34,475 nucleotides of DNA. Source: Candidatus Nanoarchaeia archaeon (GTDB taxonomy: Archaea > Nanobdellota > Nanobdellia > Pacearchaeales > GW2011-AR1). The notes below the pieces were generated by a model, which was not told the DNA's origin, did not search any database, and worked only from the letters and a program-made list of their open reading frames with translations. A program made the translations under genes and the position numbers. Location of the stretch: assembly GCA_028713045.1 (NCBI GenBank), contig JAQTOY010000005.1, positions 1 to 34,475 of the forward strand, read 5' to 3'. Shown here piece after piece: positions 7,427-34,475 of the stretch; the stretch's first letter is position 1; each line of letters opens with the position of its first letter.

Positions 7427-9421
7427 TCATCTTCTGTAAGTTTTGGCCTCTCTAAATGCTGTTTCAATATCCGCCCTTTTTTCATCTATGTCCTTTAAAA
7501 CACTGCAACTTGGAACATCTATACCAATAAATGACTTATGAACTATTGTTGGTATCCAGTCATAATGAACCTCTCCTGCTTCATCTGTTATCATATACAA
7601 AGCCAATGCACTATTTATTAATTCTCTTTGATGAGGAGGCAAAAATTTATTGTATCCGGGTTTGATTGCAGTATCAACTAATCTAGGAAGATAAGTAGAA
7701 CTTCCTGTTTTTGACATTGAAGTACTCTGATCCAATCTTGATGAGAAATAATCTGCTAAAGTATCTTCAACAGTCTGATTCGGCCCCAAACATAATTTCA
7801 AATACATTAATCCATGCGCAACCACGCATCCAGGATCTTGAGCATCAGAAGGCCTATAACCAATTGTTGATGTTTTAATCATAAAACTTTCAGGAACAAA
7901 ACAAGGGCTGAGTCTTTTTTCATTAAACTCATTTCCATACTTTCCTATCAGATGTGTATTCAAATAGCAAGCCCTCAACCAAGAGGATGTAAGTCTCTTT
8001 GGCAACCTATGGACATCATGACCAAACCTAACCTCCTCTGCAACATCCCCCCTGCTTCCATGTCTAATTTCTTCAACAGTTGGAAGCAGTTTTTTTGCTC
8101 TTTCCATGTATGGAACTAAAACTGCATAAACGTATTCTTTATCCATTCCATCCAGATCTCCAAGATTATAATGAAGATAATCTGTCTGTCTTAACATCTC
8201 AACAACAGTCGGAGGACTAGGCCTTTTCGCTTCTAAATCATTTAAATATTTAACCACTCCTGCAGCCAAAAGCCCTGCAGCAACTGCCCCGGCAGTTGGA
8301 AGAACATATCTAGCTCCGGCAATCAATTTTTCTTTGAACTTTAACCAGAAACTTGATTTTATTCTATTAAATTCTCTATTAAAAGTTTCAATATTTTTTA
8401 CTGGCTTTTTATGTTCTGAAATTAAGCATCTTTCCAATAAACTTCCATATTTTTTTCTTAAAGTTCCATCCATTTTTGAAATTGCTGAGCGGACTCTTTG
8501 AGTATTTTCTTCTTCTGTTATTTCCTCTAAATCCTTTCCACCTGAACTAAGTTTTATTAAAAACTTTTTTCCACCAACCCCGATAACAGTTTCTTTATCA
8601 GTAGGTTCATAATCAGATTCAACAGCTACTCCTCTAAGTTTATAGTCAAATGGATCTTCTCCTGTCAATGCATACAAGATTGTAGCTGCAATTGAATGCA
8701 TCTCATCTTGCCTGGTGTAAGTTGTTTCTTCTCCCCTTAAAAGCCTATTTATCAAAGTATATCTTGTATATCTAGTCCCTCCTCTAGTAGGTTGTGCACT
8801 ACATCTAAAATGCCAATAATCCAAAACTGCATTCTGAAAATCAGTAAGAATTGGTTCACCAGAACTCATCAAAACATTAGATGGCTTAACATCTCTGTGA
8901 AGAACTCTAACATCAGGCCCATGCAGATATAAAAAAGGTTCAATTAAATTTTCAATAAACTTAACAGCTCTCTCTTCATCTCTCATAGGCCCATGATCAT
9001 TTACAAATTCCTCTAAGCTAACTGCCTTGTTTTTTTGTTGCTCAAAACTAACTATTCTTCCATCTTCTGTTTCAATTGTTCCAAGAACCGGTACGATTCT
9101 AGGATGGCCTTCAAGAGCATTATGTATTTCAACTTCTCTTAGGTTAACATCCCTTCTTGTTGTATTGATAAAACCTATTATAGAATCCTCTGGATTTACT
9201 GGTTTGGGGATTTTAACAGCAAGTTCCATTCTTCTCTCCCCTCTTTTGTAAACTCCATGATAAACAATTCTAGTCAATCCATCTCCAATTTTAACAGGCT
9301 CCTCAGGAAGTTTCACTCCAGATAATTCCAGTTCATCTAAATCTGTTTCAGATATCCCATACCTAGATGCTATTTCGCTTCTTGTGATTCTTTCTAGTTG
9401 TTCGAGTTGAGCGGTTGTCAT
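7427..9421 (-). CDS. Membrane-anchored Ser/Thr protein kinase with C-terminal extracytoplasmic domain (likely start MTTAQ with SD GGAGG)
   Basis: LAVKIPKP (VAIK-like), LHRDVKPSNVLMSSGEPILTDFQNA (HRD, DFG->DFQ), TM YVLPTAGAVAAGLLAAGVV. Confidence 0.85.
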   Translation of the reverse strand: MTTAQLEQLERITRSEIASRYGISETDLDELELSGVKLPEEPVKIGDGLTRIVYHGVYKRGERRMELAVKIPKPVNPEDSIIGFINTTRRDVNLREVEIHNALEGHPRIVPVLGTIETEDGRIVSFEQQKNKAVSLEEFVNDHGPMRDEERAVKFIENLIEPFLYLHGPDVRVLHRDVKPSNVLMSSGEPILTDFQNAVLDYWHFRCSAQPTRGGTRYTRYTLINRLLRGEETTYTRQDEMHSIAATILYALTGEDPFDYKLRGVAVESDYEPTDKETVIGVGGKKFLIKLSSGGKDLEEITEEENTQRVRSAISKMDGTLRKKYGSLLERCLISEHKKPVKNIETFNREFNRIKSSFWLKFKEKLIAGARYVLPTAGAVAAGLLAAGVVKYLNDLEAKRPSPPTVVEMLRQTDYLHYNLGDLDGMDKEYVYAVLVPYMERAKKLLPTVEEIRHGSRGDVAEEVRFGHDVHRLPKRLTSSWLRACYLNTHLIGKYGNEFNEKRLSPCFVPESFMIKTSTIGYRPSDAQDPGCVVAHGLMYLKLCLGPNQTVEDTLADYFSSRLDQSTSMSKTGSSTYLPRLVDTAIKPGYNKFLPPHQRELINSALALYMITDEAGEVHYDWIPTIVHKSFIGIDVPSCSVLKDIDEKRADIETAFREAKTYRR

Positions 9422-9422
9422 G

Positions 9423-9932
9423 TTAAGAAGAACCTCCGGATTTAATTTGAATATCAGAATCAAAACATTCTAAAGGAGTAAAATCTGCATGATTCTCTTC
9501 TACCCAGATTCTTTCAGCTTCTGGACTAACAATTCTAAACCCGCTATCTTTCGCAGATACTAATAATCTTTTTAACTGAGGATTAATTGCCAAATCGGAA
9601 AGAGAAGGTTTTGAATCTGTAACTAATTCATATAATAAATGTCCGTCTTGTTCAAATCTAAGATAATAACTCCAAATACCAATACCTGATGTAGCTCCAC
9701 ACCAATGATCTTGAGATTTTAATCCATTAACATAAAGTAATTTTCCAGATAATTTTTCATCTAGTTTGGGTTTATATCTTGAACCAAAAATAATTCCCTG
9801 AGCAGCAAGTTGAACAGGCATTTCATAATTAGTAAAACTATTCCAAAATCCCTGTTGATGAAAAAACCTATGTCTTGTATTTAAAAACCCATTTATTGAT
9901 TTATCTAGACTTGAATCTTTAGAAGTTACCAT
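9423..9932 (-). CDS. Hypothetical protein
   Basis: ORF in the same operon as the kinase. Confidence 0.55.
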   Translation of the reverse strand: MVTSKDSSLDKSINGFLNTRHRFFHQQGFWNSFTNYEMPVQLAAQGIIFGSRYKPKLDEKLSGKLLYVNGLKSQDHWCGATSGIGIWSYYLRFEQDGHLLYELVTDSKPSLSDLAINPQLKRLLVSAKDSGFRIVSPEAERIWVEENHADFTPLECFDSDIQIKSGGSS

Positions 9933-19445: not shown

Positions 19446-21116
19446 CTAATTCTGTACATGAATATTAGCCAACCAGGTATTAATAAAAACAATTTCATCA
19501 TTAGGAATCACTGAATTTCCATTTGAATATCGGGCATTTCTATAAATCGCATAATCTTCACTTCTTGAAATTCTCTTAGCTTCTGCGACCGTTTTTATAC
19601 CAACCCGAGCTATTGCACATGCATCTTCAAGATCATATTTATCATCTTTTCCAGACATTGTTAATGCATATTCAATTGACCTAGCCCAAACATTCCAAGG
19701 CTGCCCTGGAGGCTCATCAGCTCCAAATCCCCTATCCCCATGCAAGGTTCTCCATTCAGAATATACACTGAATTGTTCATCGGTGTAATCTCTTCTGTTA
19801 ATACCTCTTAAACTATTGCAGGTTTTAGCATGAGTTTTTACTAGATAAGCAACAACCCGATTATTTGAACTCTGCTTTGCCAGAAAATCAAATTCTTTAT
19901 CCTTGGACTCTTCAACCTTAGGTAAGTCTGGAATAACTTCAGAATCTGGAATAAGAATTTTTTCACCAACTTTTCCAGAATATAATTGTTCATGAACTTG
20001 AAGGCTAGGCATTCTCAAATCTTGAGGCTCATGTGTAGCCATTCTAACTGCTGCAAGTGTAATAAGCCCAAGTCCCAATAAAGAATACAAACCAATTCTT
20101 CTTAATTTTTGATTTCTCTCAACCCTTTCCCTTAATCTTACTTCTTCATCTCTTGCTTCAACTAAGTTATCTAAACTTTTACAAAATGCATTTCCGTCAC
20201 GATCACGATTATAAGAAAAATAATCTAAATTTTTAATAAGTAATTCTCGTAAATCTCTATCTTTCACTTCACGAGAAATATTATCCATGATTATTTGATT
20301 AAATCTCTCAGGACTTAATCCCAAAATTTCTTCATTAGAAAAACGTTCCAAAGGATATTTTCCAGTTATCAATCTATAACCTACTGCAGCAATTGAAAAT
20401 ACATCTGCAGAAGGCAATTCTACAAAATCCTCCCTAAATGCTTCTGGAGCTCTTATAGATTCATGTCCTTTTGGGCCTGTGCTATTCGCAGGATCAGGCC
20501 AATCAGAAATCGACCTATATACATTTGTTCCCAAATCTGCTAATTTTGCTTCTCCATGAACCCTGTGAAAATCTTCATCAGTATAGGTTTCAACAACAAG
20601 ATTACTAGGTTTTATATCACAATGAACTATCTTTCTTCTATGAAGTTCTCCAGCACCTGTTGAAATACCCTGGAGCCATAGTAATATAGTCTCCAGATTC
20701 AAACCATTTCCCAGATATTTTCTTTCACCCTCATCATTTATAATCTCAGACAAGAATAAACCCTTTAATGGCATTACAAGATAAGGCATTCCTTTTTGGC
20801 CATCAAAACCAACAAATTCCTGATCATAATTATAAAAATTTGGAACAACATGATCATATGAACCAAATCCTGCAATTGCTTCAACAATAGTTTGTTGTGT
20901 TGTTGAAGCTATTCCTCTCCTAAGCATTTCTCTTTGGGCCCTTTCTCCAGGATTTGGTACTTTAATTGCAGCAACTGCATCGAGTCTTAAATCTTTAGCA
21001 CGATAAACAATATTCCAAGTTCCTCTTCCAATCTCTTTACCAATTTCATATCTCCCAGATAAAACCTTCCCTTCAAGAGAAATTTCACTCCCCATTTTCA
21101 TCCCCTCCATTATCAA
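19446..21116 (-). CDS. Membrane-anchored Ser/Thr protein kinase (ORF-track start is a TTG; MKMGSEIS or MGSEIS starts are plausible)
   Basis: GRYEIGKEIGRGTWNIVYRAKD, AAIKVP, VHCDIKPSNLVV, KLADLGTN, TM LYSLLGLGLITLAAV. Confidence 0.85.
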   Translation of the reverse strand: MIMEGMKMGSEISLEGKVLSGRYEIGKEIGRGTWNIVYRAKDLRLDAVAAIKVPNPGERAQREMLRRGIASTTQQTIVEAIAGFGSYDHVVPNFYNYDQEFVGFDGQKGMPYLVMPLKGLFLSEIINDEGERKYLGNGLNLETILLWLQGISTGAGELHRRKIVHCDIKPSNLVVETYTDEDFHRVHGEAKLADLGTNVYRSISDWPDPANSTGPKGHESIRAPEAFREDFVELPSADVFSIAAVGYRLITGKYPLERFSNEEILGLSPERFNQIIMDNISREVKDRDLRELLIKNLDYFSYNRDRDGNAFCKSLDNLVEARDEEVRLRERVERNQKLRRIGLYSLLGLGLITLAAVRMATHEPQDLRMPSLQVHEQLYSGKVGEKILIPDSEVIPDLPKVEESKDKEFDFLAKQSSNNRVVAYLVKTHAKTCNSLRGINRRDYTDEQFSVYSEWRTLHGDRGFGADEPPGQPWNVWARSIEYALTMSGKDDKYDLEDACAIARVGIKTVAEAKRISRSEDYAIYRNARYSNGNSVIPNDEIVFINTWLANIHVQN

Positions 21117-24492: not shown

Positions 24493-24563
24493 CCCCAGGT
24501 CGTATAACGGTATTACCTTCGGCTGTAGACCGAAAGAAGAGAGTTCGACTCTCTCCCTGGGGA
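24493..24563 (+). tRNA. tRNA-Tyr (GTA)
   Basis: CCCCAGG/CCTGGGG acceptor, TTCGG-CTGTAGA-CCGAA anticodon arm, AGAG-TTCGACT-CTCT T-arm, archaeal C1-G72. Confidence 0.93.
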
Positions 24564-24709
24564 TATAACGTCCTACAAGGATGTTAAACATCTAAAGAGA
24601 GATGTTGATCAAGGATTCTTCATTTTTTCAATAAAGTTCGACCGAGCAGTTTCAATTTACTAAATTGTATAATGAAATAAGAATTGGAACTGCGAGATCT
24701 CTTGGGGAT
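24564..24709 (+). ncRNA. tRNA-linked structured element, Tyr copy (candidate novel RNA/DNA element)
   Basis: Hairpin TAACGTCCT-ACA-AGGATGTTA; T-loop-like GTTCGACC; CGA-GCAGTTTCAATT...AATTGGAACTGC-GAG; acceptor copy TGGGGAT. Confidence 0.65.
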
Positions 24710-24734: not shown

Positions 24735-24756
24735 ATCCTTATAAAGGATGTTTTTT
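24735..24756 (+). terminator. Hairpin ATCCTT-ATA-AAGGAT followed by G and T6, terminator-like
   Basis: 6-bp stem, triloop, T-tract; lies 26 nt after the acceptor copy. Confidence 0.45.
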
Positions 24757-32543: not shown

Positions 32544-32678
32544 TTTATGCGCCACCCTACTCGCAATCCCATTTCTTATTTTTTTATATTTACTAAAATG
32601 AAATTGCTCGAATTAAACCCTCCGGGTTCACTTACCGGAGAATAATAAATATACTATTTGCTCCGCAGATAGTATTTA
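32544..32678 (-). ncRNA. tRNA-linked structured element, Gly copy
   Basis: Hairpin ATACTATCTGC-GGA-GCAAATAGTAT; T-loop-like GGGTTTAATT; CGA-GCAATTTCATTT...AAATGGGATTGC-GAG; GGGTGGCGCATAAA copy identical to tRNA 3' end. Confidence 0.65.
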
Positions 32679-32749
32679 TGCGCCACCCGGGAATTGAACC
32701 CGGTTCCCATCCTTGGCAAGGATGAATTCTACCGGTAAACTAGCGGCGC
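32679..32749 (-). tRNA. tRNA-Gly (GCC)
   Basis: GCGCCGC/GTGGCGC acceptor, CATCC-TTGCCAA-GGATG anticodon arm, CGGG-TTCAATT-CCCG T-arm. Confidence 0.93.
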
Positions 32750-32907: not shown

Positions 32908-33066
32908 ATGGAAAAAACAAAGATATGTCAGGATTGTAAAAAAGAATTTAAAATAATTAAAAAAACAAGATATGAAAGAAAATACTGCGATAAATGCAGC
33001 CAGCAAAGAAAAAAGGATTATGAAAATATCCATAATGTCACTTTTGAAGATTGTGACGAGGAATAG
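32908..33066 (+). CDS. 52-aa zinc-ribbon-like small protein (two CxxC), below ORF track limit
   Basis: MEKTKICQDCKKEFKIIKKTRYERKYCDKCSQQRKKDYENIHNVTFEDCDEE. Confidence 0.65.
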   Translation: MEKTKICQDCKKEFKIIKKTRYERKYCDKCSQQRKKDYENIHNVTFEDCDEE

Positions 33067-33191
33067 TTAATTGACAAAAATTATATAAAATAACAATTAG
33101 CTATTTCGAGCAGAGGAATAATTGTATAGTTTCTTCTTCAACCAAAAAATCAACAATTCGTAAGTTATTTAAATGACTTTTTTATGAAAAA

Positions 33192-34224: not shown

Positions 34225-34359
34225 ATGGGCGCACGCTGCTCGCGAATCCAATTTTCATTCAATATTTAATTAGTAATTGAATTCGCTCGATCGAACCAAG
34301 GTTCGATTCCCTGCGTATGAATCCATTTATATCATATCGCTTTCAGCGATATGATTATA
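34225..34359 (-). ncRNA. tRNA-linked structured element, Val copy
   Basis: Hairpin ATCATATCGCT-GAA-AGCGATATGAT; T-loop-like GGTTCGATC; CGA-GCGAATTCAATT...AATTGGATTCGC-GAG; GCGTGCGCCCAT copy identical to tRNA 3' end. Confidence 0.65.
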
Positions 34360-34475
34360 TGGGCGCACGCGGAATCGAACCGCGGACAACTCGGTGTAAA
34401 CTAATGTATCATAAAGCTTCTATTATGTTACATTTAGCCAATTTCTTCGTGTTGTTCGTTTGAACCGAGCAATCT
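34360..34475 (-). tRNA. 3' part of an intron-containing tRNA, probably tRNA-Val (TAC), truncated by window edge
   Basis: CGCGG-TTCGATT-CCGCG T-arm + TGCGCCC acceptor + A73; anticodon loop TTTACAC followed by CGAGT, which can pair with GCTCG at 34466-34470 across a ~65 nt insert. Confidence 0.6.

Follow-up and report, generated by a model that had tools for sequence, protein, structure and literature searches.

Why should tRNA genes of a small archaeal genome be followed by a second copy of their own 3' ends? The stretch of DNA analysed here (the window, 34,475 nt) is one contig (G000:C30) of a genome of 0.96 Mb that is 88% complete (G000). It encodes an archaeal thermosome, and the named relatives that share its tRNA-Tyr motif belong for the most part to Candidatus Pacearchaeota. 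A first-pass annotation had reported that three tRNAs are each followed by an element composed of a 12-bp stem, a T-loop-like segment and a copy of the acceptor strand. These stems, T-loop-like segments and acceptor copies were found exactly as written at all three loci (Table 1). The tRNA-Tyr and tRNA-Gly genes were confirmed by ARAGORN and Rfam. For tRNA-Val only the 3' part is present; ARAGORN misses it because only this part of an apparently intron-bearing gene lies before the contig end. No Rfam family besides tRNA was matched in the window at the gathering threshold.

Several other features of the genome are worth recording. Two tRNA-Val loci at contig ends (G000:C23:9043-9331 and window positions 34376-34475) have a common intron-like segment of 85 nt. 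Downstream of tRNA-Val(TAC) there is a copy of this tRNA's whole 3' half, starting at the anticodon loop; it represents either an end duplication of a larger kind or an effect of assembly. The window also holds a bacterial-type lipid gene, encoding a cyclopropane fatty acyl phospholipid synthase (221-1333, 597 bits), on an archaeal contig, and, within a reduced archaeal genome, genes for two large proteins that contain Ser/Thr kinase domains of eukaryote-like type (7427-9463 and 19446-21116). Another contig, G000:C46 (5.6 kb), contains eight closely spaced tRNA genes in which CCA is encoded, which sets them apart from the rest of the genome's tRNAs; it is probably a virus or a foreign contig binned with G000.

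Table 1. Positions of tRNA genes, cassette parts and related hairpins (window coordinates, except for the last line)
Feature	Position	Strand	Basis
tRNA-Tyr(GTA), with the first sense copy (S1) formed by its T-arm and acceptor	24493..24563	+	ARAGORN and Rfam RF00005, 57.5 bits
Tyr H1 palindrome TAACGTCCT-ACA-AGGATGTTA, directly 3' of the tRNA	24566..24586	+	sequence
Tyr antisense T-arm copy (A) GAGAGATGTTGATC	24597..24610	+	reverse complement of tRNA-Tyr GTTCGACTCTCTC with changes
Tyr second T-loop copy (S2a) AGTTCGACC	24635..24643	+	sequence; kept at Tyr loci of other species
Tyr H3 hairpin, CGAG-[12-bp stem 24646-24657 / 24682-24693]-GCGAG	24643..24696	+	covariation; model R1, 78 bits
Tyr distal T-stem/acceptor copy (S2b) TCTCTTGGGGA	24698..24708	+	sequence; MFE partner of tRNA 5' acceptor
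Small hairpin then T6 past the Tyr cassette, terminator-like	24735..24756	+	sequence only
tRNA-Gly(GCC), S1	32679..32749	-	ARAGORN and Rfam
Gly H1 palindrome ATACTAT...ATAGTAT	32651..32675	-	sequence
Gly antisense T-arm copy CCGGTAAGTGAACCCGG	32622..32638	-	alignment score 24, reached by 0/100 shuffles
Gly second T-loop copy GGGTTTAATTC	32610..32620	-	sequence
Gly H3 hairpin	32560..32610	-	R1, 78.3 bits
Gly acceptor copy GGGTGGCGCA	32548..32557	-	identical to tRNA-Gly 3' end
tRNA-Val 3' part, apparent intron; gene truncated by contig end at 34475	34360..34475	-	sequence
Val H1 palindrome ATCATATCGC-TGAAA-GCGATATGAT	34331..34355	-	sequence
Val antisense T-arm copy ACGCAGGGAATCGAACC	34300..34316	-	sequence
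Val second T-loop copy GGTTCGAT	34290..34297	-	8-bp hairpin with antisense copy
Val H3 hairpin	34239..34289	-	R1, 66.2 bits
Val acceptor copy GCGTGCGCCCA	34226..34236	-	identical to tRNA-Val 3' end
Additional H3-family hairpin, no tRNA attached	33057..33113	+	R1, 31 bits, E 4e-4
In-frame H3 loci (genus genomes and G000:C57)	L057, L063, L064, L069, L115, L130, L137, L149, L164		

The downstream sequences of all 41 tRNA hits in G000 were laid out for comparison. Many of these tRNAs share one layout. The unit begins with the tRNA itself (S1) and continues with a palindrome (H1), an antisense copy of the T-arm (A), a copy of the T-loop, a hairpin insert and a copy of the T-stem and acceptor (S2). 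The cassette, about 110-150 nt in length, lies directly downstream of the tRNA. Copy A, between tRNA and stem, had gone unseen in the first-pass annotation; at most tRNAs with a cassette it exceeds shuffled controls significantly, and it matches the adjacent tRNA less strictly than S2 does. The triloop hairpin noted earlier past the tRNA was confirmed, though it lacks a sequence conserved from one tRNA to another; other species also have a hairpin in the H1 position of their orthologous Tyr loci, with a different sequence. The early suggestion of a pseudo-tRNA 3' half with a structured insert came close, since S2 is a copy of T-arm and acceptor with the hairpin placed at the T-loop or the first T-stem bases.

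The commonest insert, H3, has the form [CT]GAG-12 bp-loop-12 bp-(C)GAG. In most first units the match to the H3 model lies 29-86 nt past the tRNA. H3 breaks S2 cleanly between ATCC and T in Arg, Leu, Gln and Met tRNAs (e.g. ATCC/TGTC in tRNA-Arg and ATCC/TACC in tRNA-Leu) and between TTCGA and ATCC in tRNA-Gln. A second type of insert, found at Ile, Lys, Phe and Arg tRNAs, consists of two hairpins (e.g. AAGTCACCAAGAATT...AATTCTTGAG); in G007 this block has one orientation at Gly and Cys tRNAs and the opposite one at Phe and Arg tRNAs. Units free of an insert occur at tRNA-Phe of G017 and tRNA-Cys of G002. Tandem units are present at tRNA-Leu(TAG) of G000, tRNA-Gln of G019 and G013, tRNA-Tyr of G010, tRNA-Gly of G007 and tRNA-Phe of G017. 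The Tyr cassette is kept across several species, among which the helix formed by the antisense and T-loop copies shows wobble or compensatory substitutions. At about 1870-2040 of another contig of the source genome (L045, G000:C37) there is an orphan tRNA 3' end, CCTGCCCCCGCTA, resembling the initiator tRNA-Met of G014; it has a full cassette and no detectable 5' tRNA half.

How common are these cassettes, and how closely do they follow their tRNA? They do not follow every tRNA gene genome-wide: with criteria combined, 30 of 88 unbiased tRNAs of this Pacearchaeota genus carry one, about a third. Presence varies by isotype (permutation p 0.02). Among the 88, the Asn, Thr, His, Trp, Pro and Ala tRNAs (1-11 of each) were all without a cassette, though one at tRNA-Thr(ggt) exists in G002. 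When the last 16 nt of each tRNA were sought in its own downstream 300 nt (score at least 11), 17 of 68 unbiased tRNAs matched their own trailer, against 0.4-0.6% of swapped pairs; the test gave 5 of 22 in G007 and G014 together and 0 of 51 for tRNAs of other genera. Where tRNAs had the same anticodon and came from different species with different acceptors, S2 was nearer to its own tRNA in 88 comparisons, a few of which differ merely by a one-base register, and nearer to the other in none. The acceptor positions of S2 are identical to the tRNA in 401 of 420 cases, a figure biased upwards by the choice of units on their acceptor match.

Could the cassettes simply be mutational debris? Replicative template switching at the T-arm and at downstream hairpins might repeatedly produce sense-antisense-sense triplications, which would have neither function nor dedicated mobility and would decay; the hairpins would be independent repeats. 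The turn-around points do lie at palindromes, decayed copies exist (L138, L177 and L179), and at tRNA-Lys of G010 (L089) the direct repeat extends over the left H1 arm, which a foldback would predict. H1 itself has no strand bias (334 Watson-Crick pairs, 8 GU and 6 AC). Against this, the cassettes are frequent in one genus and confined to it (0/51 outside), their geometry is tight, one hairpin family sits at the same T-arm position of many tRNAs and the tracking of the tRNA is near-perfect. We consider debris an unlikely explanation.

The hairpin insert was followed beyond the tRNA genes. RNAalifold applied to 11 H3 copies of the source genome gave 14 consensus pairs, 7 of them with compensatory changes. 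The corresponding covariance model (R1) finds 13 strong copies in G000. Over 58 genomes it gave matches in 16 of 20 within the genus and in 4 of 38 outside, these 4 having one or two weak matches each. In a set of 118 copies, taken from the examined loci of the genus and a few relatives, 95.6% of cells are paired, and 397 cells are double-sided compared with 123 ± 8 in shuffled and 32-98 in slid controls. The covariation proposed from three loci is overwhelming over more copies, and the acceptor copies do follow their tRNA; both had been put forward as checks in the first-pass annotation. Absence from most tRNAs had been named in the first-pass annotation as a sign of coincidence; about two thirds do lack the element, and coincidence is nevertheless ruled out because of tracking and covariation. 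An artefact of a single assembly is likewise ruled out, as cassettes occur in many independent assemblies.

H3 carries [CT]GAG at its 5' foot and (G)GAG or GAA at its 3' foot, and has a long AT-rich loop. The tandem GA/GA at its base resembles a kink-turn and is also kept where H3 is antisense to transcripts. A bulge-helix-bulge intron inside the cassette can be ruled out, since the 12-bp stem is continuous and only GA/GA stands at its base; a C/D or H/ACA guide RNA finds no support either, as Rfam gives no such match in the window. In two species the intron of tRNA-Arg(TCG) is an H3-like hairpin, TGAGAATTTTCATTTGAC...AACAAATGAAAAATCGA (L171 582-709; G000:C31:5160-5290). A palindromic repeat may here have turned into an intron, or the reverse.

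The stem follows tRNA genes at three loci of the window, but it occurs away from them too. Of the 118 matches, 42 have a detected tRNA upstream on the same strand, 6 lie near tRNAs on the opposite strand and 69 have no tRNA detected nearby, some of these belonging to tRNAs missed by ARAGORN (L052, L055 and L060). H3 is a dispersed, strand-specific hairpin repeat; GAG stands at both of its feet, and its mid-stem is weak. Its similarity is 0.68 between different isotypes within a genome, 0.64 for the same isotype in another genome and 0.62 where neither is shared, so H3 likeness does not follow tRNA orthology. One subfamily occurs at Arg, Met, Leu, Gly and Val tRNAs in G005, G011 and G014 with similarity up to 0.9. 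H3 is also found in frame, on the non-coding strand and often in tandem (54 or 57 nt spacing), at the N-terminus of genes for '(N)SKRSQVTVFIIL' membrane-anchored proteins (Table 1); translated, these copies read as NSRS..LFNNN..NSKRS repeats. At L126, L128, L142, L144, L154 and L157 it lies directly past GGAGG-like Shine-Dalgarno sequences. In several such cases an ORF on the same strand starts a few bases downstream, and the 3' foot may serve as a new ribosome-binding site.

What would a transcript of tRNA and cassette look like? In minimum free energy (MFE) predictions, which model naked RNA only, the 5' acceptor pairs with the distal copy instead of the native one in 49 of 55 cases. The T-arm of the tRNA is drawn into a long hairpin with copy A, and H1 usually forms the cap; at the Tyr locus this T-arm is again the predicted partner of A, pairing with the T-loop copy being also possible. 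Forcing the native acceptor costs a median of 7.3 kcal/mol. When trailers were swapped between tRNAs (n=55), 33 used the native acceptor and 13 the distal one. The distal-acceptor fold arises largely because S1, A and S2 share one molecule. Trailers have a median folding z of -2.9 (-0.4 in controls), and whole trailers fold better as the sense strand in 49 of 61 cases (37 of 57 in controls).

A cis-acting RNA switch in the tRNA transcript is a possible but rather doubtful reading. In it, A would have two alternative partners, the T-arm of the tRNA and the distal T-loop copy, and the 5' acceptor would likewise have two, the proximal and the distal acceptor. On such a model the cassette might choose between the mature tRNA and a blocked or alternative form and so tune the yield of chosen isoacceptors, a role about which we are sceptical. 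Besides the two mutually exclusive folds that are predicted, with 49 of 55 distal at a median gain of 7.3 kcal/mol, against 13 distal and 33 native with swapped trailers, and the negative trailer z, the switch would fit the isotype-dependent presence, the long life of the Tyr cassette with its wobble and compensatory changes, and the terminator-like hairpin and T6 past that cassette. With an antisense T-arm and a spare acceptor on each such tRNA, the precursor would be bistable, either a normal tRNA or a form that the distal acceptor closes. The cassettes would then make up a new class of cis-acting tRNA switch, again something we think rather unlikely to hold. Sense-antisense-sense copies, however, yield an alternative fold by construction.

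If pairing in RNA had been selected, G.U pairs should outnumber A.C mismatches. The excess is slight in the helix of antisense copy and T-arm (12:5) and absent from H1 (8:6); changes in S2 relative to the 5' acceptor comprise 6 GU, 5 AC and 8 others. The earlier proposal that the distal acceptor competes in tRNA 3' processing has the fold predictions behind it, and the counts at H1 and at the acceptor copy give no sign of RNA-type selection. H3 behaves differently. Its G.T:A.C ratio is 21:2 past tRNAs and 32:3 antisense to genes, and the wobbles fall on mid-stem pairs 6-8, at the same positions in both settings. Since the rule also holds antisense to genes, it belongs to the hairpin itself and not to tRNA transcription. 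When trailers were split, the H3 part gave GU:AC = 34:1 and the part preceding it 17:14. The sense-strand folding advantage therefore cannot be taken as RNA selection, the pre-H3 part being unbiased and H3 being equally biased antisense to genes. In this respect H3 behaves like a REP-like hairpin of single-stranded DNA.

The explanation that we tentatively favour, while stopping short of calling it probable, is a tRNA-anchored, non-autonomous foldback cassette that evolves as DNA, carries a REP-like hairpin and is held in agreement with its tRNA through slippage, or through exchange, within tandem arrays. The tracking of the adjacent tRNA, the unbiased H1, the strand rule independent of transcription, the dispersed H3 whose likeness departs from tRNA orthology, the two-hairpin block in both orientations, the tandem and H3-less units and the clean breaks at ATCC/T all count for it. 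Counting against it, the tight geometry and the persistence of the Tyr cassette across species look like constraint, H3 near tRNAs is almost always in tRNA orientation (42 vs 6), and the trailers have their sense-strand folding advantage (49/61), though mainly from H3.

According to the foldback explanation, a tRNA 3' end that became single-stranded would fold back at its T-arm. The sense-antisense-sense duplication could then come from template switching at these hairpins, or from single-stranded DNA being cut and rejoined there. The REP-like H3, spreading between loci, would land in the half-palindrome of the T-loop in S2, the expendable copy. Slippage or unequal exchange among the S copies would add further units and, through turnover of the arrays, keep S2 identical to the tRNA by concerted evolution; it is the tandem arrays that point to this cause of acceptor tracking. 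The unprocessed transcript is predicted to prefer pairing of the 5' acceptor with S2 while A sequesters the real T-arm, so the cell would need to cleave the proximal 3' end before the cassette is transcribed.

An obvious question is which enzymes might move such a cassette. No integrase, Cas1 or transposase linked to the cassettes was found in the genus genomes, and no clean pair of empty and filled sites between strains was found, so that insertion was never directly seen; both results weigh against the foldback cassette. Y1_Tnp (PF01797) is absent from the carriers G000, G007, G010 and G012, and only one of six Y1 loci examined had H3 in the flanking sequence covered, about 1.3 kb away; REPs driven by RAYT are rejected on these grounds. 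As to viral carriers, two H3 patterns gave zero matches in 2.9 million viral contigs. A casposon (Cas1) origin is rejected on the lack of Cas1 in 19 of 20 genus genomes (it is present in one).

The cassettes could also be remnants or miniatures of elements that integrate at tRNA 3' ends with a tyrosine integrase or casposase, S2 being the displaced 3' end or a target duplication. Direct repeats starting in the T-arm and continuing through the acceptor, and the tandem accretion, would agree with this. Tyrosine recombinases are present in 20 of 20 genus genomes, mostly Xer-type-looking; most of them are probably the universal Xer-type gene and hence uninformative. The repeats, however, vary in length from about 10 to 44 nt, the 110-150 nt cassettes are gene-free, the antisense copy is unexplained, every tRNA would require its own matching element, and 19 of 20 genomes are without Cas1. 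We regard integration remnants as very improbable. Of the early idea of a small element inserting at the segment used by tRNA integrases, the broad notion of a tRNA-targeted element survives; a tie to integrase, Cas1 or transposase does not.

In this reduced DPANN genus, one tRNA gene in three has its own end copied in sense-antisense-sense form. The acceptor copy is almost identical to the tRNA while the rest diverges, which would be an unusual case of concerted evolution at the most constrained of genes. This raises the question of how tRNA is produced from transcripts predicted to favour the wrong fold. The cassettes are a natural system in which to study tRNA 3' processing and rearrangement driven by hairpins, and H3 extends REP-like strand-specific hairpins to archaea. 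Were the RNA switch true, a minimal archaeon would have isoacceptor-specific control of its tRNA supply.

No description of such tRNA cassettes was found in the open-access literature. Among the closest known systems are REPs and REPtrons (RAYT, TnpA-REP). Like these, H3 is a short, dispersed, imperfect palindrome, single or in tandem, with a conserved unpaired foot. In REPs the foot is GTAG, and those of E. coli need a bulge in the stem (PMC8266576); the hairpin is strand-specific in both cases, and the weak mid-stem of H3 may be compared with the mid-stem bulge of REPs (PMC8266576). H3 differs in being archaeal, in having GAG on both sides instead of a one-sided GTAG or CGTC, in its long AT-rich loop, in its attachment to copies of tRNA ends and in that several carriers are without Y1 transposase. 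Rickettsia palindromic elements lie in frame within protein genes, and some belong to a CGTC-tagged family without dedicated transposase (PMC3733652). H3 resembles them, as judged from sequence, in its in-frame position at the N-terminus of 'SKRSQVTVF' genes with a tandem spacing of 54 or 57 nt; the lineages are unrelated and belong to different domains of life. To our knowledge, Rickettsia palindromic elements do not carry copies of an adjacent tRNA.

Integrated elements displace tRNA 3' ends. Here, unlike in fragments displaced by an integrase, an antisense copy and hairpins intervene, a third of tRNAs are affected and no gene-bearing element was found between tRNA and S2, only about 70-270 nt separating the copies. 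Intron-bearing, split and permuted tRNAs of archaea likewise have tRNA pieces with structured sequence between them, and some true introns in the genomes studied here resemble H3. The bulge-helix-bulge at intron junctions consists of two 3-nt bulges with a 4-bp helix between them; in the cassettes the tRNA gene is complete and the H3 stem continuous, with no 3-nt bulge within. Casposons target the T-arm/acceptor part of tRNA genes and leave a duplicated end, with a fixed target duplication of 14-15 bp. The cassettes share the targeted part and the duplicated end. They differ from casposons as described (PMC4046053) in that Cas1 is missing in 19 of 20 genomes, in repeats of about 10-44 nt and in the presence of the antisense copy. 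Finally, partial tRNA copies in prokaryote genomes get mistaken for genes (PMC9897764), and the tRNA-adjacent copies described here can mislead tRNA annotation.
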